64,000 nucleotides of DNA from a virus, in the IMG/VR virus record IMGVR_UViG_3300022562_000747, positions 62,001 to 126,000 of that record. One strand, written 5' to 3'. The translations under genes were made by a program, and so were the position numbers. Position 1 is the stretch's first letter. Every line of letters begins with the position of its first letter. Under the pieces are notes generated by a model. It saw only the letters and a program-made list of their open reading frames with translations, ran no database searches and was not told the origin of the DNA. Shown here in pieces: positions 14,963 through 52,080 of this stretch.

Positions 14963-15331
14963 ATGGCAAATGTACTAAACAGAACCACAAAAGTATATCT
15001 TGAATCGGTCAATACTCCGGATTATCCGGATACTGATTGGATTATCAATCCTGATTTGTCAGCCGTTGCGGGTTGGCCTGCCAAATATTGGATAATTACC
15101 GGTGATGTAGTTACCCTTATGGATGCAAGCGCAAGAGCAACCGTTGATGCTGACGAATTAGCAGCGCAACGAGATGCTCTTGTGGCTCAAATGGATCAAG
15201 TTGAAAGCTACACCCGGGCATTTGCCTTGGTTGTTCTGGACGAAATAAACAACCTACGAGCATTGCATAGTTTGGCTGATCGAACTATTGCTCAATTGAA
15301 AAATTCTGTTCGTAATAAATTAGGTAGCTAA
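14963..15331 (+). CDS. small virion protein (fibre-associated)
   Basis: A 122-residue protein. Residues 10-55 (VYLESVNTPDYP, then WIINPDLSAVAGWPAKYW) match a small structural protein seen beside fibre genes in several marine phages. The second half (LAAQRDALVAQMDQ, then LHSLADRTIAQLKN) is helical. Its 3' end overlaps the convergent methyltransferase gene by 12 bp. Exact function is unknown. Confidence 0.7.
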   Translation: MANVLNRTTKVYLESVNTPDYPDTDWIINPDLSAVAGWPAKYWIITGDVVTLMDASARATVDADELAAQRDALVAQMDQVESYTRAFALVVLDEINNLRALHSLADRTIAQLKNSVRNKLGS

Positions 15332-17524
15332 TTTTTTTCGGAAATGGTAATCGCCATCTACTGACTTGCCGTTCAATATATTCGGACAAAAAGCTCCATT
15401 ACCCATCAATTTGAAACCAATACTGTCAAGATAATTGATAACATCTCCCGCCATGGGCGCACCTTTATTGTAAGATACCGTCTGCAATTCAAGGATCAAA
15501 TCATTGCAATGTTGCAAGGTATAATGTGCCCCCTTGAGAATGTCCATTTCGGCTCCTTGCACATCCATTTTGATCAAATCAGGCATTGGAAAATTTTCAA
15601 CCTTTACAACTGTATCAAGAGTTTTGGTTATACGTTTTTGTTTATGGCTTTCGTTTAGAATATCGTCAATATTGGGAACAAACTCTTTATTGACCTTGAA
15701 ATAACCATTACCCCCGGGATCGAAATCATTCTGCCAGAAGTCTATTTCCTTATCATCCTTGTCGCTTAGAACCCCAATGTAATAAGGGATATTTTGTTCC
15801 TTATACAAAAACTCGGCTTGATCAAATGCATCAAAAGCATAATAATTCGCATCAGCCCAAACAAATTTAGCCATATTGGTCCAATGCAGAACACAGGCTC
15901 CAATATCATAAATGATACGCGGGTTCCAACCCTCGGTATTTTTCAGGTGTAACAGGTAATCATAATGTTTCTTGGGGATAAGTTGCTGGCTTCCAAGGTC
16001 ACGCAAACGCTGTTCAAGAGAGTCGGCAGGCTTGGTAATAGTGAAATTACCTAGAGGTGGCACCACATACTCGGTTGTGCCAAGATGGCGACACTTCACG
16101 GATGTATCAGCATATAACTTGAAGCCCTTTTCCGTTGCTTTGCGACAGAAATAGTTATCTTCGGTTATATCCCCCACATGTTCCAGCGATCCTACCCAAT
16201 AAAACTGAGGATAACCAACCGTAGTAATGACTTCCTTTTTAATCAAAACACATCCAAACCCACATCCCCCAATCTCAATTAGCTTGTTATCCGGAATATT
16301 ATTTCGGCTCATACGTCGCATGGATAGATCATATAGTTCAATGTTTTCAGTTCCCGGAATGCGTTGAATATACACCCCCGAAACCAATGGAACATCATGG
16401 CTCAATAATTTTTTTAATGTATCAGGCGGAAAAGCAATATCGCTATCAACTGCCCATAGATAATCAAACCCCTTGACAACCCAATCGGCAATTAGATTGC
16501 GGACTTGGGATATATTATTACCAAAAAAACATTGAAAAGTTGTTTCATAACCTGCTGGTATTTCCTGATCATAAATCGATTTGAAACATTCGGTATCGAT
16601 ATATTTGAACGTAGGAATGGCGATAAGAATTTTCTTTGCCGGGGGTTTCATAATATTTTTTATACTAGGACTTTGTTGAACAAATGATGATAATCCGAAT
16701 GGTAATTCTGTTTTCTTATCTTGAATTGAAGGCATATCTCCTGCAATTACTTGTTTTATTATTGAATCCACAATAGGGGTATCGCTATTAGCGATAATCT
16801 TATTAGCCGTCATTGTTTGTTCATCCTTGTTTACCTTGTAATCATTCAGAGGATTAGTATCGTTATAATTATAAACTACATCTTGAATAACCTTGATCTT
16901 ATTTGGGTCAGCTTGTTCGAGAATATTATAGAATACCGCAACATCGCCCCCGGCTCGGAACCATTTTTTATTTTCATCTCTAAATTTTTCGAAAGGAACC
17001 TTTTCTGCCAAATAATTTCGAAACACGCGGGGATGGTCGTAAGGTATATTCCAAGCAAATTTATGTGAGCGATATGCTTTGCTTTTTAGAATATTAGGAG
17101 GATATTCTTGGGCAATCAATGGAATTTTATCAACCATTGACCAACAGGACCCATAACAATATTCATAACCCTGATGGAATATTTCATTATACATATTGAA
17201 TATTTCGGGATTGTTTACAAGCGAATCATCGCCGTCCAATAGCATTATAATATCATCCGGCTCGGCATATTTTCGAATGGTGGTTATTTGGTTATAGACG
17301 GCTCCCATGTTTTGAGAACCAACTACAAATTCTATCTTATCTTCACATCCAATATCTTCTATTGCTTTACAAGCAACATCATAACTATTATCGGTGCTGG
17401 CATCGTCAATCAGAATATGTTTATAATTTGTATAGTTTTGAGCGGTAACTGATCGTATGCATTTCTCAATGTATTTCTCCGCATTCCAAAACGGTGAAAT
17501 GATTACAATTCTTTGTTCTTCCAT
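15320..17524 (-). CDS. three-domain glycosyltransferase-FkbM methyltransferase fusion
   Basis: A 734-residue enzyme on the minus strand. Residues 5-235 are a GT2 glycosyltransferase (ISPFWNAEKYIEKCI, LIDDASTDNS at 38-47, LLDGDD at 95-100). Residues about 298-500 are a second GT-A-like domain (ILIAIPTFKYID, then WAVDSDIAF at 357-365). Residues about 530-705 are an FkbM-type SAM methyltransferase (IYDIGACVLHW, then LIKMDVQGAEMDILKGA at 650-666). It should transfer one or two sugars and O-methylate one. It starts one base into the stop of the upstream glycosyltransferase (TAATG coupling). It lacks a signal peptide or membrane helix, so it acts in the cytoplasm. Targets may be the collagen-like fibres that flank it, or host glycans. 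Confidence 0.85.
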   Translation of the reverse strand: MEEQRIVIISPFWNAEKYIEKCIRSVTAQNYTNYKHILIDDASTDNSYDVACKAIEDIGCEDKIEFVVGSQNMGAVYNQITTIRKYAEPDDIIMLLDGDDSLVNNPEIFNMYNEIFHQGYEYCYGSCWSMVDKIPLIAQEYPPNILKSKAYRSHKFAWNIPYDHPRVFRNYLAEKVPFEKFRDENKKWFRAGGDVAVFYNILEQADPNKIKVIQDVVYNYNDTNPLNDYKVNKDEQTMTANKIIANSDTPIVDSIIKQVIAGDMPSIQDKKTELPFGLSSFVQQSPSIKNIMKPPAKKILIAIPTFKYIDTECFKSIYDQEIPAGYETTFQCFFGNNISQVRNLIADWVVKGFDYLWAVDSDIAFPPDTLKKLLSHDVPLVSGVYIQRIPGTENIELYDLSMRRMSRNNIPDNKLIEIGGCGFGCVLIKKEVITTVGYPQFYWVGSLEHVGDITEDNYFCRKATEKGFKLYADTSVKCRHLGTTEYVVPPLGNFTITKPADSLEQRLRDLGSQQLIPKKHYDYLLHLKNTEGWNPRIIYDIGACVLHWTNMAKFVWADANYYAFDAFDQAEFLYKEQNIPYYIGVLSDKDDKEIDFWQNDFDPGGNGYFKVNKEFVPNIDDILNESHKQKRITKTLDTVVKVENFPMPDLIKMDVQGAEMDILKGAHYTLQHCNDLILELQTVSYNKGAPMAGDVINYLDSIGFKLMGNGAFCPNILNGKSVDGDYHFRKKLAT

Positions 17525-18801
17525 TATAGAAAATCCTCGGGATTGGCAAAACGACGCCCAAATATCTGATGAATACGTTTATTGATATATTTGACTTGTA
17601 GATATTCCTCAACCGGTAAATATTCTCCAAGCACATTATAAAAATGCTGCTTCCATTGTAGGGCTATGCTATCCCATTGGGAATATGGCTTGACTATATT
17701 ACAATAATGGGCTTTTTGTTTCCACAGGTATTTGTCAGCATGAGCGCGTAACATCATATCAAGAAATCGATTCACCTGCTCATCCTTGTTGATATTGGGA
17801 AACAAGCCATTTGGTTCAACTGGATAATCAAGCAAATATGATGCTTTATCAATTGCCGTTTCTTCCATGGCTCCAAACCGACAACCGATAATGGGGGTAT
17901 TGTAATTCAATGCTTCAAGGGCTGATATTCCAAATGTTTCGGGAAAGGCTCCGGGAGCAACATAATATGATGCTTTGGTCAATAAATCAGCAATTTCGTC
18001 TTGTTTGATAATACCCGTAAAAGTAATGTTCTTATTGTTAGGTAATGCCTTCAATTCATGCCATCTCTTTTCCTGATCGTCGGGTTGTCTATCCGGAAAA
18101 CGATAAAATCCTCCAATAATAACTAATTTAGCGTGAGGAACCTGTTCAATAAATTTTGGCCAAATATCTTTTACAAGAGGAACCATACCTTTGGTAAGGG
18201 ATGCATTATAGATAAACAAATTGGGGTCTTTGGCAAAAACATTGACCCAATCATGATAACGTCGCATTCCATCTCGGGTCTGAAATATTTTATTCTTGAG
18301 AACTTCAAACATTCGTTTAGCTCCATGATCACAATTAGTCACATAAACAGAATGGAAGTCAGATAAAGTAAAAATCTTGTCAAATCTTTTATTGACAATC
18401 ATATGTTCAACAAATGGATCGGAGCCTTGCACAAATGTATCATGCATCCATAACACTTTATATTTGGCTGTTTTTATAATGTTATTGAATTTAGGATCGC
18501 CGGTATAGGGAGCAATAGAACGAGAAGATATTATGATATCAATATTTGAACAGCTACTTATCCCATTTAGATTTATATAGTTGACCCCATCATAAACACC
18601 GGGATGGGTATCATCTTCGCCACAACGGTTGAAAACAGTTACTTGAAATCCAAGTTTGACCAATTCGGGGGCAATAAGGATTACGGACGATTCACTCCCG
18701 CCCAAGCCACGTTTTTTTAGGGTATCCCCACAATAAGGAAGTCCTAAAACATCAATAAAAGCTATGCTTAAATTCAATTCATTCACCTTATAAATTACCA
18801 T
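17524..18801 (-). CDS. GT-B (GT4-like) glycosyltransferase
   Basis: A 425-residue protein. GT-B features are visible: GGSESSVILIAPELVKLG in the N-terminal Rossmann half, KLVIIGGFYR and NITFTGIIKQDEIADLL in the second half, then the donor-binding FPETFGISALEALNYNTPII with the EX7E-type acid pair. A longer frame begins at 18837 but runs across the -10 box of its own promoter, so the ATG at 18801 is chosen. A TTG at 18777 behind AAGGTGA is an alternative. It is first in the two-gene minus-strand operon with the fusion enzyme. Confidence 0.85.
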   Translation of the reverse strand: MVIYKVNELNLSIAFIDVLGLPYCGDTLKKRGLGGSESSVILIAPELVKLGFQVTVFNRCGEDDTHPGVYDGVNYINLNGISSCSNIDIIISSRSIAPYTGDPKFNNIIKTAKYKVLWMHDTFVQGSDPFVEHMIVNKRFDKIFTLSDFHSVYVTNCDHGAKRMFEVLKNKIFQTRDGMRRYHDWVNVFAKDPNLFIYNASLTKGMVPLVKDIWPKFIEQVPHAKLVIIGGFYRFPDRQPDDQEKRWHELKALPNNKNITFTGIIKQDEIADLLTKASYYVAPGAFPETFGISALEALNYNTPIIGCRFGAMEETAIDKASYLLDYPVEPNGLFPNINKDEQVNRFLDMMLRAHADKYLWKQKAHYCNIVKPYSQWDSIALQWKQHFYNVLGEYLPVEEYLQVKYINKRIHQIFGRRFANPEDFL

Positions 18802-18806
18802 AAATA
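18799..18806 (+). promoter_or_regulatory. candidate late promoter box (CATAAATA)
   Basis: CATAAATA on the plus strand points at the collagen-like fibre at 18888, 81 bp away. It overlaps the start codon of the leftward glycosyltransferase, so late transcription of the fibre would begin within the glycosyltransferase control region. Confidence 0.35.
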
Positions 18807-18825
18807 GATTGAGATGATTAGCTAT

Positions 18826-18854
18826 ATTATATCGCAATTGCTGATCATTGTCAA
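18826..18854 (-). promoter_or_regulatory. perfect-consensus sigma70-type promoter for the glycosyltransferase operon
   Basis: Read on the minus strand: TTGACA (18854-18849), 17 bp, TATAAT (18831-18826), both hexamers perfect. A transcript would start near 18819 and reach the ATG at 18801 with a short leader. This implies early expression by unmodified host RNA polymerase, unlike the flanking late fibre genes. Confidence 0.85.
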
Positions 18855-32695: not shown

Positions 32696-33343
32696 ATGAT
32701 CTTTGATATCGAGACTTTTAAGGCGGCTGGTTTAAAGCAAGGTGGGGCACGACCATCATTGTTCCAAGTTCAAATGAACAATGTTCCGGGAACTAATGGT
32801 GTTATCGAGAACCAACAGCAAATTAGCTTCCTTGCTCAAGCAGCTACCCTACCGGAATCACAAGTTGATCCAATTGAAGTTCCTTATTTCGGTAGAAGAA
32901 TAAAAGTTGCAGGTGAAAGAGTATTCCGTGATTGGACTATTTCTGTTCTTAATGATGAAGACTTTATTGTTCGTGATCTATTCGAACGTTGGTCAAATCT
33001 TATCAATACTATGGAAACCAACGTAACTTTGGCATCATCGGCTGGTTTAGCCGTCAATCCATTGCTAGGTTATAAGTGTGATGGTGTTCGAGTCAACCAA
33101 TACAGTAAAGGCGGTCCAGCCGCAACTGATACTGGTTCCGAAGATGCTATCATTCGAAGCTATCAATTCTTTGGAATGTTTCCAGCCAGAGTTGATGACA
33201 TTCGATTGGATTGGAGCCAAGGACAAGCGATTGAAACATACAATGTAGTCCTTTCATATGATTATTGGTTGCCAGTAAATATTGGACAAAGCACCCCGGG
33301 TTTCACCGGACTAGAACCGGGAAGCGGTCCTCAATTCGGCTAA
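32696..33343 (+). CDS. 19: gp19 tail tube protein
   Basis: A 215-residue protein. FQVQMNNVPGTNGV, VPYFGRRIKVAGERVFRDW and ISVLNDEDF are typical of T4-like tail tubes. Followed by a 103-bp gap before the portal gene. Length is slightly above T4 gp19 (163). Confidence 0.93.
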   Translation: MIFDIETFKAAGLKQGGARPSLFQVQMNNVPGTNGVIENQQQISFLAQAATLPESQVDPIEVPYFGRRIKVAGERVFRDWTISVLNDEDFIVRDLFERWSNLINTMETNVTLASSAGLAVNPLLGYKCDGVRVNQYSKGGPAATDTGSEDAIIRSYQFFGMFPARVDDIRLDWSQGQAIETYNVVLSYDYWLPVNIGQSTPGFTGLEPGSGPQFG

Positions 33344-40156: not shown

Positions 40157-41596
40157 ATGCGTGATATGTTGGCGGAAGAAGTCCAAAAAAAGTGGAAGGC
40201 TATCCTTGAACATGAGGACCTTCCGGCAATTAAGGATGCTAATCGACGTTGGGTAGTTGCCCAATTGTTGGAAAATAGCGAACGAGAGCTTGGTCAATAC
40301 ACCGACAAAAGCCAGTTCCTTACTGAATCACAACCAACCAACTCCATGGGTCTATCGTCTTCAACCCCGGGAACTGGTAACATCGATACATTCGATCCGG
40401 TTTTGATTTCTCTAATTCGACGTGCAATGCCAAATTTGATCGCTTATGATCTTTGTGGTGTTCAACCTATGACCGGTCCAACCGGACTTATTTTTGCTAT
40501 GCGTTCACGCTATGCTCCTGTTGAATCCGGTGTTGCTAACGCGGGTGGTCCAGAAGCCTTCTTCTATGAAGCTAATACTGGTTTCTCTGCTCGTGGTGGT
40601 GCTAATGCTGCTTCAAATACCCAGTTTGGTCAGACTGATCAGCCGTATGCTAACAACACGGTTCCGGGTGGTGGTGCCAACAACGTTGGAGCTAATACAA
40701 CTTATAGCCTTCCGGGTGTAAGTAACAACGCTGGTAACAGCACATATAACTACGCTGGAACCCTATTGACGGCAACAGCCGAAGGTCTTGGTAGCAATAG
40801 CATTCAGCAATTCCCTGAAATGTCATTCTCTATCGAAAGCGTTGCGGTCAAGGCTGGTACTCGTGCTTTGAAAGCTGAATATTCGATGGAACTTGCTCAA
40901 GACCTTAAGGCTATTCATGGTCTTGATGCTGAAAGCGAATTGTCTAACATTCTGTCCACTGAAATCTTGGCAGAAATCAATCGTGAAATTGTCCGCGCTT
41001 TGAACGTGGTTGCAGTTTCCGGCGCTCAAGAAGATGTTACCTCTCCGGGTATATTTGACCTTGACGTTGATGCGAATGGTCGTTGGATGATTGAAAAGTT
41101 CAAGGGACTTCACTTCCAGCTTGAACGTGAAGCAAACCAAATCGCCAAGCAGACTCGTCGCGGTAAGGGTAACTTCGTTCTTTGCTCGTCAGATGTGGCG
41201 TCGGCTCTACAAGCAACCGGCTTCCTATCTAATACCCCGGCATTGAACGCAAACAACCTACAGGTTGACGATATGGGTAACACTTTTGCAGGTATATTGA
41301 ACAACCGTATGAAAGTTTATGTTGATCCGTATGCTCTTGGTGGTCAGTATATGACTGTCGGTTATAAGGGTAACAACCCATTTGACGCTGGTTTCTTCTA
41401 CTGTCCATATGTTCCGCTACAAATGGTTCGGGCAGTTGATCCGAATACCTTCCAACCAAAGATTGGTTTCAAGACCCGATATGGTATTGTCGCTAATCCG
41501 TTCGCAGTTGGTATGCCAGCGGCTCATGTTGCAGGAACAATGGTTCAGGACAGCAACCAATACTACCGCCGCATTATAGTTACCAACCTACAGTAA
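40157..41596 (+). CDS. 23: gp23 major capsid protein
   Basis: A 479-residue capsid precursor. SLIRRAMPNLIAYDLCGVQP and MTGPTGLIFAMRSRY are signatures of T4-like capsids. A gp21 site is visible at residues 55-58 (LTE then Ser), the same place as in T4 gp23 (mature N-terminus at residue 66). Mature protein would be about 422 residues. Followed by a strong terminator. Confidence 0.96.
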   Translation: MRDMLAEEVQKKWKAILEHEDLPAIKDANRRWVVAQLLENSERELGQYTDKSQFLTESQPTNSMGLSSSTPGTGNIDTFDPVLISLIRRAMPNLIAYDLCGVQPMTGPTGLIFAMRSRYAPVESGVANAGGPEAFFYEANTGFSARGGANAASNTQFGQTDQPYANNTVPGGGANNVGANTTYSLPGVSNNAGNSTYNYAGTLLTATAEGLGSNSIQQFPEMSFSIESVAVKAGTRALKAEYSMELAQDLKAIHGLDAESELSNILSTEILAEINREIVRALNVVAVSGAQEDVTSPGIFDLDVDANGRWMIEKFKGLHFQLEREANQIAKQTRRGKGNFVLCSSDVASALQATGFLSNTPALNANNLQVDDMGNTFAGILNNRMKVYVDPYALGGQYMTVGYKGNNPFDAGFFYCPYVPLQMVRAVDPNTFQPKIGFKTRYGIVANPFAVGMPAAHVAGTMVQDSNQYYRRIIVTNLQ

Positions 41597-41619: not shown

Positions 41620-41651
41620 GAAGGGGGCTTAATTGCCCCCTTCCTTTTTTT
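41620..41651 (+). terminator. rho-independent terminator after gene 23
   Basis: GAAGGGGGC, a 6-nt loop, then GCCCCCTTC forms a 9-bp perfect stem, followed by a T-rich run (CTTTTTTTG). It ends the head cluster. The leftward hydrolase stop codon lies in its loop, so the hairpin lies within the 3' end of both genes. Confidence 0.9.
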
Positions 41652-42246
41652 GTAATAATCTTCCAAGCTCTACTATAGTAGATGTATGTTGTAGGCTTTC
41701 ATGGTGGGATGAATTAATAGTCTTTATTTGAGCTATTTTCGGTTTCCATTTGATTTGGGAAGAAACAGTAACCACTCCGTCATTTGGTTCAAAAATAACC
41801 GGATTGAAACCACTTGTTGAAACAATCATGGTCATTGGTTTGGAATATACATTCGAATGTATCTTTTGAATAATCGGCGCATTCTCCATGATATCCTCAA
41901 GAACCGGGGATCGATGATTAAGATAAAACATCAATAATCGGTTATACTTCAAACCCGATAAAGGGGAGGAAATAGTCAACAGACTTTTAACGTTTCGATT
42001 TTTTGAAATACCTGCCGAAATAATACCCCCCAAAGAATGACCAACAAGAATAACATCATTATCAATTTTCTTGACTTGCTCGTTGGCTTTCTCTATAATA
42101 TTTGAGACATTTTCGGTTGAATTATAACTAAAGGCATGAATTTGATTTACTTCCGGATGTTTTGAAAATACGGAGATTAAATAATTAAAAGATGTTGGGG
42201 AAGACCATGCCCCATGGATAAGAAATAAATCAGTTTTTTCAGCCAT
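41629..42246 (-). CDS. alpha/beta hydrolase (lipase/esterase-like)
   Basis: A 205-residue minus-strand protein. Oxyanion-hole region LFLIHGAW near the start, nucleophile elbow GHSLGG with Ser-71, candidate acid Asp-156 (EPNDGVVT) and His-181/182 (SSHHESL) complete the triad. No signal peptide, so cytosolic unless released by lysis. ATG at 42246 is preferred to one at 42291, which lies upstream of the late-type box. Located between genes 23 and the gp3-like gene. The substrate is unknown. Confidence 0.8.
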   Translation of the reverse strand: MAEKTDLFLIHGAWSSPTSFNYLISVFSKHPEVNQIHAFSYNSTENVSNIIEKANEQVKKIDNDVILVGHSLGGIISAGISKNRNVKSLLTISSPLSGLKYNRLLMFYLNHRSPVLEDIMENAPIIQKIHSNVYSKPMTMIVSTSGFNPVIFEPNDGVVTVSSQIKWKPKIAQIKTINSSHHESLQHTSTIVELGRLLQKKEGGN

Positions 42247-42263: not shown

Positions 42264-42292
42264 TTGACAAACACACTGTTTTATGATACAAT
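42264..42292 (+). promoter_or_regulatory. sigma70-type promoter for the BA14K gene
   Basis: TTGACA (42264-42269), 17 bp, TACAAT (42287-42292), with an extended-minus-10 TGA just before the -10. Start near 42299, then AGGAGA and the ATG at 42313. Confidence 0.8.
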
Positions 42293-42312
42293 TTACAAAA
42301 ATAGGAGACAAA

Positions 42313-42618
42313 ATGTATAAATTTCTATCAGCTTTTATTATAGCAATAACTCTAATCGCAACCCCGGCTCTGGCTCGCCCATATCATGGCGGCGGTCATT
42401 GGGGTGGGGGTCACTATCGAGGCGGTCATTATAATTATCATAACAATTTTTGGGTTGCTCCTGCTATCATTGGGGGAGCCATTCTTGGTTCAGCTTTGAT
42501 CTATAATGGCACTCGATATAACGATGCTGTTGAATATTGTCGAGCAAGATATCGTTCATATGATCCTTATTCCCAAACCTATCTAGGAAAGGATGGTTGG
42601 CGGCATCCTTGTCCCTAA
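42313..42618 (+). CDS. BA14K-family secreted protein
   Basis: A 101-residue exported protein. Residues 1-21 are a signal peptide (MYKFLSAFIIAITLIATPALA, cleaved after ALA). A Gly/His-rich region follows (GGGHWGGGHYRGGHYNYH), then a hydrophobic stretch, then the BA14K signature CRARYRSYDPYSQTYLG with KDGWRHPCP at the end. BA14K proteins are known from Brucella and other alphaproteobacteria as immunoreactive, lectin-like envelope proteins. The gene has its own host-type promoter and ribosome site (AGGAGA). ATG at 42313 is chosen because 42283 lies in the promoter. Probably acquired from a host. Confidence 0.85.
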   Translation: MYKFLSAFIIAITLIATPALARPYHGGGHWGGGHYRGGHYNYHNNFWVAPAIIGGAILGSALIYNGTRYNDAVEYCRARYRSYDPYSQTYLGKDGWRHPCP

Positions 42619-42645: not shown

Positions 42646-43221
42646 ATGAATTGGACAAATTCAACATCAAATTATTGGACAGAATCGACTGAAAAACATA
42701 CAGCGGTCAGTAACGATCCGGAAAATAACCAATTTTTATCACCCGTAAATTTCAAGTTCATCTTGAAACGTGCCCCCAACTTGAATTTTTTTCTACAAAA
42801 GGTGAATCTTCCTCGAATAAACATACCCCCGGCTAAAGAACCAACTCCATTTGCAGATCGTTGGTTACCGGGGGTTGATGTTGTATTTGATCCTTTGAAT
42901 ATTACTTTCCGGGTTGATGAAGATTTGAAAAATTGGAAAGAAATTTATAACTGGTCAATGGCTCTTGGTGAAGCAAAAAGCCTACATCCTTATAGACATT
43001 TGGAATTAAAACCAACATGGACAGGGGAAGGTGTTTTTTCGGATATAACCGTAACAATTCTTGATTCTCTAAAAAATCCTAACATTACTTTCTATTACCA
43101 TGATTGTTTTCCAATCTCTATAAGTCAGGTAATGTTTGATGCTACTCCTAACGCAATAAATCATGCTATGTGTGAAGTATCTTTTCGATATATCAATTTT
43201 GATATTGAAACAGTAGTATAA
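42646..43221 (+). CDS. gp3-like tail completion / tail-tube-fold protein
   Basis: A 191-residue protein between gene 23 and uvsY, where cyanophage-like T4 relatives carry gene 3. NFKFILKRAPNLNFFLQKVN, then VDVVFDPLNITFRVDEDLKN and the ending DCFPISISQVMFDA, have the layout of tail-tube-fold proteins (compare the C-terminal part of T4 gp54 and gp19). Likely a tail completion or tube-end protein. The number gp3 comes from position only. Confidence 0.6.
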   Translation: MNWTNSTSNYWTESTEKHTAVSNDPENNQFLSPVNFKFILKRAPNLNFFLQKVNLPRINIPPAKEPTPFADRWLPGVDVVFDPLNITFRVDEDLKNWKEIYNWSMALGEAKSLHPYRHLELKPTWTGEGVFSDITVTILDSLKNPNITFYYHDCFPISISQVMFDATPNAINHAMCEVSFRYINFDIETVV

Positions 43222-43632: not shown

Positions 43633-44077
43633 GGAAATACTTGCCGAATGGGATAAGGATGTAGAAATCAACTACACCGAATTGGGTGAAGAAGCTCGCA
43701 AGATACCCCGGCTTCATGCCAAATATCTGCGAATGTTGACCATGGAAAAACTGACCTTGAAACAATTGGAATCCAAGTTCAAGAAATTCAAGTTTACCAA
43801 ACAGCAATATTATCTGGATGGTCCGTCCAATATGGCGGAATTTGAACAAAAGAAAAAGGAATGGAAAACTGTTCCGGAAATCCAGCGCACCATTCCCCGT
43901 ACCCTTGTTGATGGTTATCTGGAAGTTGATGAAGATATTGATACTATGAAGCTTAGATTGGAATTGGCTCAAACCAAAATCGATGCTTTGGATTTTATCA
44001 TGAAATCGATCATGCAAAGATCATATTTGATAAACAATATGATCACATGGCAGCAATGGAACGGAGGCGGTAAGTGA
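43622..44077 (+). CDS. uvsY: UvsY recombination mediator
   Basis: A 151-residue helical protein, near T4 UvsY (137). The start MQLEEILAEWDKDVEINYTE and the pattern ALDFIMKSIMQRSYLINNMI at the end match the family. UvsY loads UvsX recombinase on gp32-coated single strands. ATG at 43622 is chosen over an upstream TTG. Overlaps the next gene by GTGA. Confidence 0.85.
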   Translation: MQLEEILAEWDKDVEINYTELGEEARKIPRLHAKYLRMLTMEKLTLKQLESKFKKFKFTKQQYYLDGPSNMAEFEQKKKEWKTVPEIQRTIPRTLVDGYLEVDEDIDTMKLRLELAQTKIDALDFIMKSIMQRSYLINNMITWQQWNGGGK

Positions 44078-44682
44078 TTGATATTTTATATACCGGGGGA
44101 GCCAAGGGAGCCGATACAATATTCAGTGATTGTGCGGATCAGGTTGGTCATAAGGTATATCAAATGACCTTTCCCAATCATAAGATTTCGGAAAATGTTC
44201 ATGGGGAATTTGTGACCCTGACGGAACATGAATTGAAAGCTGCTGATCCGTTTCTCAAACAAGCCAATAAAACCCTGAAACGGGGATTGGGACGTAGCCT
44301 TTATGTCCGCAATCTTTTGCGTCGTAATTACTATCAAATCAAGGATACGGAACGGGTTTATGCGATTGCTCCAATAGATTCCGATACCCAATTAGTTGAG
44401 GGGGGGACTGCATGGGCAGTCACAATGGCTATTGATAAAAAGGTTCCAGAAATTTATGTGTTTGATTTGAATGAAAGCAAATGGTTCAAATATATGCATG
44501 AACGGAATTTTTTGCAAGCTTTATGGGCGGCTCCCCAAGGTGGATGGCAACCCCCATACCCCCATGGAAAATATACCGGTATTGGTTCGTGTGAATTGAC
44601 TGATGCTGGAAAAGATGCTATCTATAATCTCTATATTGGTAAACATTTTTGGGAATATATGTCTGATGATTTCAAATGGTAG
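44074..44682 (+). CDS. SLOG-superfamily nucleotide-binding-like protein
   Basis: A 202-residue protein starting with GTG in the uvsY stop overlap, behind GGAGGCGG. ILYTGGAKGADTIFSDCA and LVEGGTAWAVTMA are typical of SLOG/YpsA-like folds, which bind nucleotides or nucleotide-derived ligands. In other systems SLOG proteins act in DNA uptake or nucleotide signalling. Here it is coupled to uvsY, so a recombination-linked role is possible but unproven. Confidence 0.65.
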   Translation: MIDILYTGGAKGADTIFSDCADQVGHKVYQMTFPNHKISENVHGEFVTLTEHELKAADPFLKQANKTLKRGLGRSLYVRNLLRRNYYQIKDTERVYAIAPIDSDTQLVEGGTAWAVTMAIDKKVPEIYVFDLNESKWFKYMHERNFLQALWAAPQGGWQPPYPHGKYTGIGSCELTDAGKDAIYNLYIGKHFWEYMSDDFKW

Positions 44683-50371: not shown

Positions 50372-52080
50372 AATTAATTCTGAAAAAGGTGAGATTTGCT
50401 AACTTTATGTCATTTGGCAATATGTGGACTGAAATTGACCTGAATACCCATCCTACTACTTTGATTGTCGGTAAGAACGGTAGCGGAAAATCGTCGGCTA
50501 TTCTGGATACTATTTCTTTTGCTTTGTTCAATAAGCCATTCCGTAACATCCGGAAGCCGCAATTGACCAATTCAATAAACAACAAGAACTGCCTTGTCGA
50601 GTTATATTTCTCCGTCAACAACAACAATTTCAAGGTTGTTCGGGGTATTAAACCTGCCGTTTTCGAAATCTATAAGAATGAAGAATTGATCACGCAATCC
50701 GCCGATAACAGGGATTATCAGGATGCATTTGAGAAATATATCCTACGGGTCAATCATAAGACATTTTGCCAGATTGTTATGCTTGGATCAGCTATATTCA
50801 CCCCTTTTATGGGATTGCCTGCCCAAGCGCGACGTGATGTTATCGAGGATTTGCTTGACCTGAAAATCTTCTCGACAATGAATGTATTGTTGAAAACCCG
50901 CCTTTCTTCGAATGAAGCTACTTTATCATCTATCCAGACCGAAAAGCGCATTCTTACCGAAAAGATAGAAATTACCCGGAAACATATTGCCGAAGCTTTG
51001 GAAGCAAAGCGAGTATCGATCCATGAAAAGGAAGAACAAATTAGTTCTCTTGAAATGGAGCGACAGACACATAGTATCGATATTGCAGGCATTCAAAAAC
51101 TAATCAGCGATCTTATCACTAATCTTGGGGATATAAAACACGTCAAAAAAACCAGCGACGAAATCAACAAATTGTATCATCAGTTGATACATAAGAGCGA
51201 ATCGATCAAGAAAGAGATTGATTTTCTGACCAATGAAAAAAACTGTCCAACCTGCGAACAAGTTATCGATAATGACTTTCGAGAACGGAAAGTTGTGGAA
51301 AAAACCAAGACCTATGAAGAATTAAATAATGGTATTGCTCAATTGCTCAAGAAACAAGAGAATTTGAATAATAAGCTGACCCATATTGCCGAAATTCAGG
51401 CAAAAATTCAGGAATGGAATGATGTTATCAAGGAACACCGTTCCAAAATGGATGTTATTGATATGCAAATCAAACATATCGAAACAGATATTGAGAATAT
51501 AAGCAAGTCCAAGCGAGAGATTGATCTATCAGGTCTGGAAGGGATGATAAATCAGCTTGGGGATGTAAAGACCCATCTTGTTCAATTGGAAGATGATCAG
51601 AATATCATGGGATTTGCTGCCAATATGCTAAAGGATACCGGAATCAAGGCACGTATTATCAAGATGTATATTTCGGTGATCAATACCCTTATTGCCAAAT
51701 ATCTAGCTGCTTTGGATTTCTTCGTTTCCTTTGAATTGGACGAGAATTTCAATGAAACTATCAAGAGCCGGTTCCGGGACGAGTTTTCCTATATGTCTTT
51801 TTCGGAAGGGGAAAAGTGCCGCCTAAATATTGCTATATTGTTCGCATGGCGGGCAATAGCCAAAATGAGGGGGTCAATCGACTGTAATTTGATCGTTTTG
51901 GACGAATTGTTCGATTCTTCCTTGGATTTGACCGGTATTGATGATATGATGAAGCTCTTAAATAACTTGACAAATAACGAGAATGTGTTTATAATAAGTC
52001 ATCGTGAGGATCAGATTTCGGAAAAATTTGCCCGAGTAATTCGGTTCCAGAAAACCAAGAACTTTTCGGAGATAGGATGA
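50368..52080 (+). CDS. 46: gp46 recombination ATPase subunit (Rad50/SbcC-like)
   Basis: A 570-residue ABC ATPase. Walker A GKNGSGKSS at 35-43, zinc hook CPTC at 293-296 in the middle of a long coiled coil, signature FSEGEKCRL at 478-486, Walker B LIVLDELFD at 508-516. Partner of gp47. A perfect-consensus promoter lies in its 3' end. Confidence 0.93.
   Translation: MKLILKKVRFANFMSFGNMWTEIDLNTHPTTLIVGKNGSGKSSAILDTISFALFNKPFRNIRKPQLTNSINNKNCLVELYFSVNNNNFKVVRGIKPAVFEIYKNEELITQSADNRDYQDAFEKYILRVNHKTFCQIVMLGSAIFTPFMGLPAQARRDVIEDLLDLKIFSTMNVLLKTRLSSNEATLSSIQTEKRILTEKIEITRKHIAEALEAKRVSIHEKEEQISSLEMERQTHSIDIAGIQKLISDLITNLGDIKHVKKTSDEINKLYHQLIHKSESIKKEIDFLTNEKNCPTCEQVIDNDFRERKVVEKTKTYEELNNGIAQLLKKQENLNNKLTHIAEIQAKIQEWNDVIKEHRSKMDVIDMQIKHIETDIENISKSKREIDLSGLEGMINQLGDVKTHLVQLEDDQNIMGFAANMLKDTGIKARIIKMYISVINTLIAKYLAALDFFVSFELDENFNETIKSRFRDEFSYMSFSEGEKCRLNIAILFAWRAIAKMRGSIDCNLIVLDELFDSSLDLTGIDDMMKLLNNLTNNENVFIISHREDQISEKFARVIRFQKTKNFSEIG
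51967..51995 (+). promoter_or_regulatory. internal perfect-consensus sigma70-type promoter in gene 46
   Basis: TTGACA (51967-51972), 17 bp, TATAAT (51990-51995), both hexamers perfect. It lies 82 bp before the next ATG and would transcribe the small genes and peptide deformylase downstream. Confidence 0.7.

Follow-up and report, generated by a model that had tools for sequence, protein, structure and literature searches.

A T4-like phage encodes a small protein of the BA14K family, in a genomic position of a known type. The gene (42313-42618, plus strand) is thus a phage-borne addition to a known bacterial family, and its unusual side is that a phage carries such a gene, as do, in rare cases, a few others unrelated to it. 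The window analysed here is a 64,000-nucleotide stretch that covers positions 62001-126000 of a 181,157-bp virus record (IMG/VR IMGVR_UViG_3300022562_000747), which is probably complete because its two ends share a 144-bp direct repeat. The record codes for a portal, prohead protease, scaffold, gp23, tail sheath, tail tube, terminase, UvsY, UvsW and gp46/47-like proteins, and this gene set identifies the phage as T4-like.

The translated product, MYKFLSAFIIAITLIATPALARPYHGGGHWGGGHYRGGHYNYHNNFWVAPAIIGGAILGSALIYNGTRYNDAVEYCRARYRSYDPYSQTYLGKDGWRHPCP, consists of 101 residues. Residues 73-101 (42529-42615) match positions 2-30 of the 30-position PF07886 (BA14K-like) profile with a score of 48 bits (E 1.2e-12), against a gathering cut-off of 26 bits. 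In this protein (P0001), all 11 invariant columns of an alignment of 35-37 members are kept; these comprise C, R, S, D, T, G, DG, RH and C, the two cysteines being Cys76 and Cys100. A first-pass annotation, made from the sequence alone, had assigned the ORF to this family; the motif it quoted, RYRSYDPYSQTYLGKDGWRHPC, is present in the translation, and the profile search that it proposed bears the assignment out. The signal peptide and the Gly/His-rich region that it described are likewise recovered by translation and hydropathy. No PHROGs family matches the protein, and no Rfam family was found in the region.

Upstream of the domain, sequence, hydropathy and alignment predict a signal peptide and a membrane segment. 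The signal-peptide-like N-terminus, MYKFLSAFIIAITLIATPALA (42313-42375), has an ALA cleavage motif and is followed by a Gly/His-rich stretch, RPYHGGGHWGGGHYRGGHYNYHNN (42376-42447), and by a hydrophobic glycine-zipper segment, WVAPAIIGGAILGSALIY (approximate limits 42451-42504), that aligns with AGAIIGGAI of bacterial BA14K proteins. The mature part of 80 residues contains 14 Gly and 6 His. The BA14K proteins of the Hyphomicrobiales, such as those of Brucella and Bradyrhizobium, have in common with it a signal peptide, a Gly/basic-rich stretch, an AGAIIGGAI-like glycine zipper and the C-terminal pattern C..R[FY]RSYDP.S.TYLG.DG.RHPCP, with every invariant residue. In contrast to these, the window protein is phage-encoded and His- instead of Arg-rich, and it is shorter than nearly all homologues among the matches listed. 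An in-frame ATG further upstream, at 42283, is an unlikely start because it overlaps the promoter. The AlphaFold2 model includes a confident C-terminal helix (residues 67-79) and hairpin (residues 89-99), with pLDDT of 86-91 across this block, and there is little confidence outside the C-terminal part (overall pLDDT 61.5). With this low-scoring model as the query, Foldseek searches of PDB and BFVD yielded no significant structural neighbours and thus no structural match suggestive of a lectin. A Cys76-Cys100 disulphide probably closes the domain.

The family had been described in the annotation as alphaproteobacterial, and its distribution supports a concentration in the Hyphomicrobiales. PF07886 is represented in 104 of the 150 genomes of the order around a Bradyrhizobium centre (Hyphomicrobiales), often in several copies, and in 6 of 289 genomes drawn from the class and 35 of 299 drawn from the phylum, ratios that are only indicative given the unstated stratification of these draws; it was not detected in any of the 14 control genomes. 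Of the best 80 bacterial homologues that the genome collection yielded, all but one come from records named as Hyphomicrobiales or placed no more precisely than in the Alphaproteobacteria; the exception is a record named Frankia sp. RB7, which is probably mislabelled. Neither of the two outcomes that the annotation had named as contrary, the lack of a significant PF07886 match and an even spread of homologues outside the alphaproteobacteria, was encountered. The third-position GC content (GC3) of the gene is 0.26, as is that of the adjoining tail-tube gene, compared to 0.51-0.81 in the bacterial copies. This composition fits the phage and not the bacteria, so if the gene was captured from such bacteria, the transfer is old, and the gene has resided in phages long enough to adapt.

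The gene is preceded by a sigma-70-type promoter, TTGACA-17-TACAAT with an extended -10 element (TGATACAAT, 42264-42292, plus strand), which matches the consensus in 11 of 12 positions. A TG precedes the -10 hexamer, the promoter ends 20 bases upstream of the start codon, and an AGGAG ribosome-binding site (42303-42307, plus strand) lies 5 bases before the ATG; both signals agree with the first-pass description. Sites with at least 11 of 12 matches occur six times on the plus strand and once on the minus strand of the window, with a chance expectation under a Markov model of about 1.9 per strand. Given how few such sites there are, chance alone would rarely place one correctly ahead of a given start. 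On the plus strand there are two copies of the T4 late motif TATAAATA, one immediately before the scaffold gene (39021) and one immediately before gp23 (40115). Judging by these consensus matches, the BA14K gene seems to be transcribed on its own, by the host polymerase, whereas the scaffold and capsid genes appear to use late promoters.

The gene lies in an interval bordered on the left by gp23, the major capsid protein gene (40157-41596, plus strand), and on the right by a tail-tube-like gene (42646-43221, plus strand; 47% identical to its counterpart in the close relative L012). A terminator-like hairpin (41620-41643, plus strand) would end the gp23 transcript upstream of the interval. The space between is filled by the BA14K gene and a divergent gene (41629-42246, minus strand) for an alpha/beta hydrolase with a GHSLGG motif and no apparent signal peptide, which matches PF02089, PF07819 and PF12697 just above cut-off. 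No relative of this hydrolase was found in the viral contigs searched or in four related records, and its phage matches are weak ones, in large Vibrio and Acinetobacter phages. In L012, whose gp23 is 79% identical, the interval holds an ORF that we read as GIY-YIG-like along with small minus-strand ORFs; that of Stenotrophomonas phage DLP_6 contains an exonuclease, and the genes after it, for tail tube, UvsY and UvsW, come in the same succession as in the window. Assorted extra ORFs follow gp23 in further related loci as well (L014, L016, L017 and L019, for example). The occupation of the same interval by an exonuclease, a GIY-YIG-like ORF, or a hydrolase and BA14K identifies it as a variable cargo slot. 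Among the 18 virus records to which a gp23 relative or a small protein of similar type had led, no BA14K match exceeds the cut-off. The likeness to a moron that had been suggested for this gene holds in part: judging by consensus, the gene has a promoter of its own, apart from those of the neighbouring phage genes, and L012 and DLP_6 carry other genes at the same position. However, no terminator-like site was found between the end of the gene (42618) and the start of the tail-tube gene (42646), the only one being that before the slot, so one classical moron feature is missing.

Scanning IMG/VR with the BA14K domain alone, in a profile-like manner, yielded seven loci; a further viral scan added none, and no INPHARED record matches the window protein or the L117 or L121 copies. 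Three of the loci, L116, L117 and L121, are phage-encoded copies with PF07886 scores above cut-off (49.1, 48.7 and 55.2 bits, respectively). The BA14K gene of L116 comes after a CHAP lysin and small membrane proteins, that of L117 after a lipoprotein and a small holin-like membrane protein (PF16083 at 17.1 bits, below cut-off) on a contig that also has Sak4-like and exonuclease genes, and that of L121 adjoins an SU10-type portal and tail genes. Like the window gene, these copies lie in phage neighbourhoods but, unlike it, they belong to other phage backgrounds and sit inside larger operons, lysis-like or structural, with no comparable promoter upstream, so that early expression is not common to the phage copies. 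Because the three backgrounds differ from the T4-like one, either the gene has passed from one phage lineage to another or its capture has happened more than once. In the tree of the domain, which is poorly resolved, L116 and L117 group together (98/90) and P0001 is not placed with them; the AU test does not reject one clade of all virus copies (p-AU 0.13). The occurrence of copies in three unrelated phage contigs argues for usefulness to phages. It may be, although we consider this doubtful, that BA14K genes have been captured time and again by unrelated phages of Hyphomicrobiales-type hosts, which employ them in infection as a factor that acts on the envelope.

The wider pattern, that is, rare BA14K copies in several phage backgrounds, is the most interesting part of these observations. 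The domain is present in most of the Hyphomicrobiales genomes sampled and is tied to envelope stress and Brucella virulence, yet its molecular role is unsettled; its presence in unrelated phages suggests that it is useful at the envelope of the infected cell and provides a simple genetic handle. If repeated capture as an envelope-acting factor is true, phage genetics could reveal the function of a widespread bacterial envelope domain.

Two other sets of candidates were not accepted as phage copies. L118-L120 and L122 are rich in GC and carry the BA14K gene close to a contig end; they probably represent prophage edges or host sequence. L002-L011 encode small exported His/Gly-rich W-xxPAIIGGAI proteins that resemble the window protein in the signal peptide, the His/Gly stretch and PAIIGGAI, this 8-mer being the very search pattern by which they were selected; unlike the window protein, they have no BA14K domain, and their genes usually adjoin IscU/IscA-like (Fe-S assembly-type) genes. 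This set includes a 347-kb contig, and the L004 gene has a late-type TATAAATA upstream.

As to function, we tentatively prefer early remodelling of the envelope by an exported phage protein, which would hinder superinfection. The first-pass annotation had likewise suggested that the envelope may be modified, for example by receptor masking, a suggestion prompted by the signal peptide and the Brucella literature. Under this scenario, BA14K would be an accessory, moron-like cargo gene that the host sigma-70 RNA polymerase transcribes from its own promoter, apart from the late promoters of the phage. The product would be exported by Sec, as its signal peptide suggests, and held at the membrane by the glycine zipper, with the small helix-plus-hairpin domain exposed to the periplasm or the surface. 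There the domain might bind envelope glycans, by analogy with the lectin-like activity reported for Brucella BA14K, and the altered or shielded envelope would, most simply, keep a second phage from adsorbing or its DNA from entering. Cor, Llp and SieA are superinfection-exclusion envelope proteins of phages, and morons are classically prophage genes. The window gene shares with these its small size, its accessory nature, a promoter of its own within a late region, and an exported envelope protein as the expected product, but it has no sequence relation to them, its carrier is T4-like rather than a prophage, and exclusion by BA14K is our proposal. The family assignment, the domain, the bacterial-type architecture, the promoter match and the variable slot are observed and, together with the signal-peptide-like N-terminus and the three further phage copies, underlie this reading; so do the reports from Brucella, where BA14K is described as secreted and regulated by envelope stress (PMC10592609), is linked to virulence, and is credited with a lectin-like activity through a citation of Vemulapalli et al. 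2006 (PMC6304850). Immunoreactivity is also reported for Brucella copies. Against this reading, what BA14K does at the molecular level is itself unsettled, being called 'poorly characterized' or 'unknown' (PMC12548446), the L116, L117 and L121 genes lie in other types of operons and have no such promoter, and no structural match points to a lectin. In the 12 listed publications that mention BA14K, no link to phages appears in titles or abstract openings.

Only slightly less probable is that the phage copy adds to the BA14K pool of the host and keeps the envelope intact during a long infection; as the bacterial genes are stress-induced, the phage gene would then be an auxiliary host-type gene instead of an exclusion factor. 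Indeed, ba14K belongs to the sigma-EcfG targets with the strongest activation in B. abortus (PMC12354254), its expression in B. ovis falls upon deletion of the envelope regulators cenR/essRS (PMC10592609), and in Mesorhizobium loti a BA14K gene ranks with those most induced by heat; the copies, often several, in most Hyphomicrobiales genomes also fit. However, stabilisation of the envelope by BA14K is a conjecture, and hosts already have several copies of their own. The gene contexts in L116 and L117, behind a CHAP lysin or a holin-like protein, raise the prospect that the exported glycine-zipper protein contributes, as infection ends, to disrupting the outer membrane or exposing it, but this is unlikely for the window gene, which is apparently not near lysis genes and has an early-type promoter, and the L121 copy lies among structural genes. 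Slightly more unlikely still is a neutral passenger, acquired from a host but under no selection in the phage: the rarity of the gene, its absence from INPHARED and from the 18 related records, would agree with this, but the ORF is intact, with all invariant residues, a promoter and a ribosome site, its composition is adapted to the phage, and copies exist in unrelated phages. A minor virion protein of the head-tail cluster, as the location between gp23 and the tail-tube gene and the structural operon of L121 might suggest, is highly improbable in view of the signal peptide, the sigma-70-type promoter and the absence of the gene from relatives with the same structural genes.

The suggestion in the first-pass annotation that BA14K points to the host group stands only weakly, because the composition of the gene is phage-like and the marker genes point in different directions. 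The nearest named relatives differ by gene: the terminase is closest to those of Sinorhizobium phages phiN3, phiM7, phiM12 and phiM19, Rhizobium phage RHph_I1_18 and Methylophilales phage Melnitz (about 51-52%), whereas gp23 and the portal are closest to those of DLP_6 and cyanophages. An alphaproteobacterial host is plausible.

Several other features of this genome were observed. About 25 tRNA genes cluster around the record ends (L109, L115), outside the window. A second phrog_45 gene, also tail-tube-like, is located at 32696-33343, in addition to that at 42646-43221, and a gene for a DprA-like recombination-mediator protein (44074-44682) is placed between the UvsY and UvsW genes. A perfect consensus site, TTGACA-17-TATAAT, near the end of an SbcC-like gene (51967-51995, plus strand) is possibly an early promoter for the genes downstream. 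Another perfect TTGACA-17-TATAAT site, at 18854 on the minus strand, accompanies a two-gene operon (15320-18837, minus strand) that adjoins collagen-repeat tail fibre genes on the opposite strand; this operon encodes a 734-aa GT2 glycosyltransferase with an FkbM methyltransferase domain and a GT1 glycosyltransferase, which could glycosylate the fibres or the host surface.
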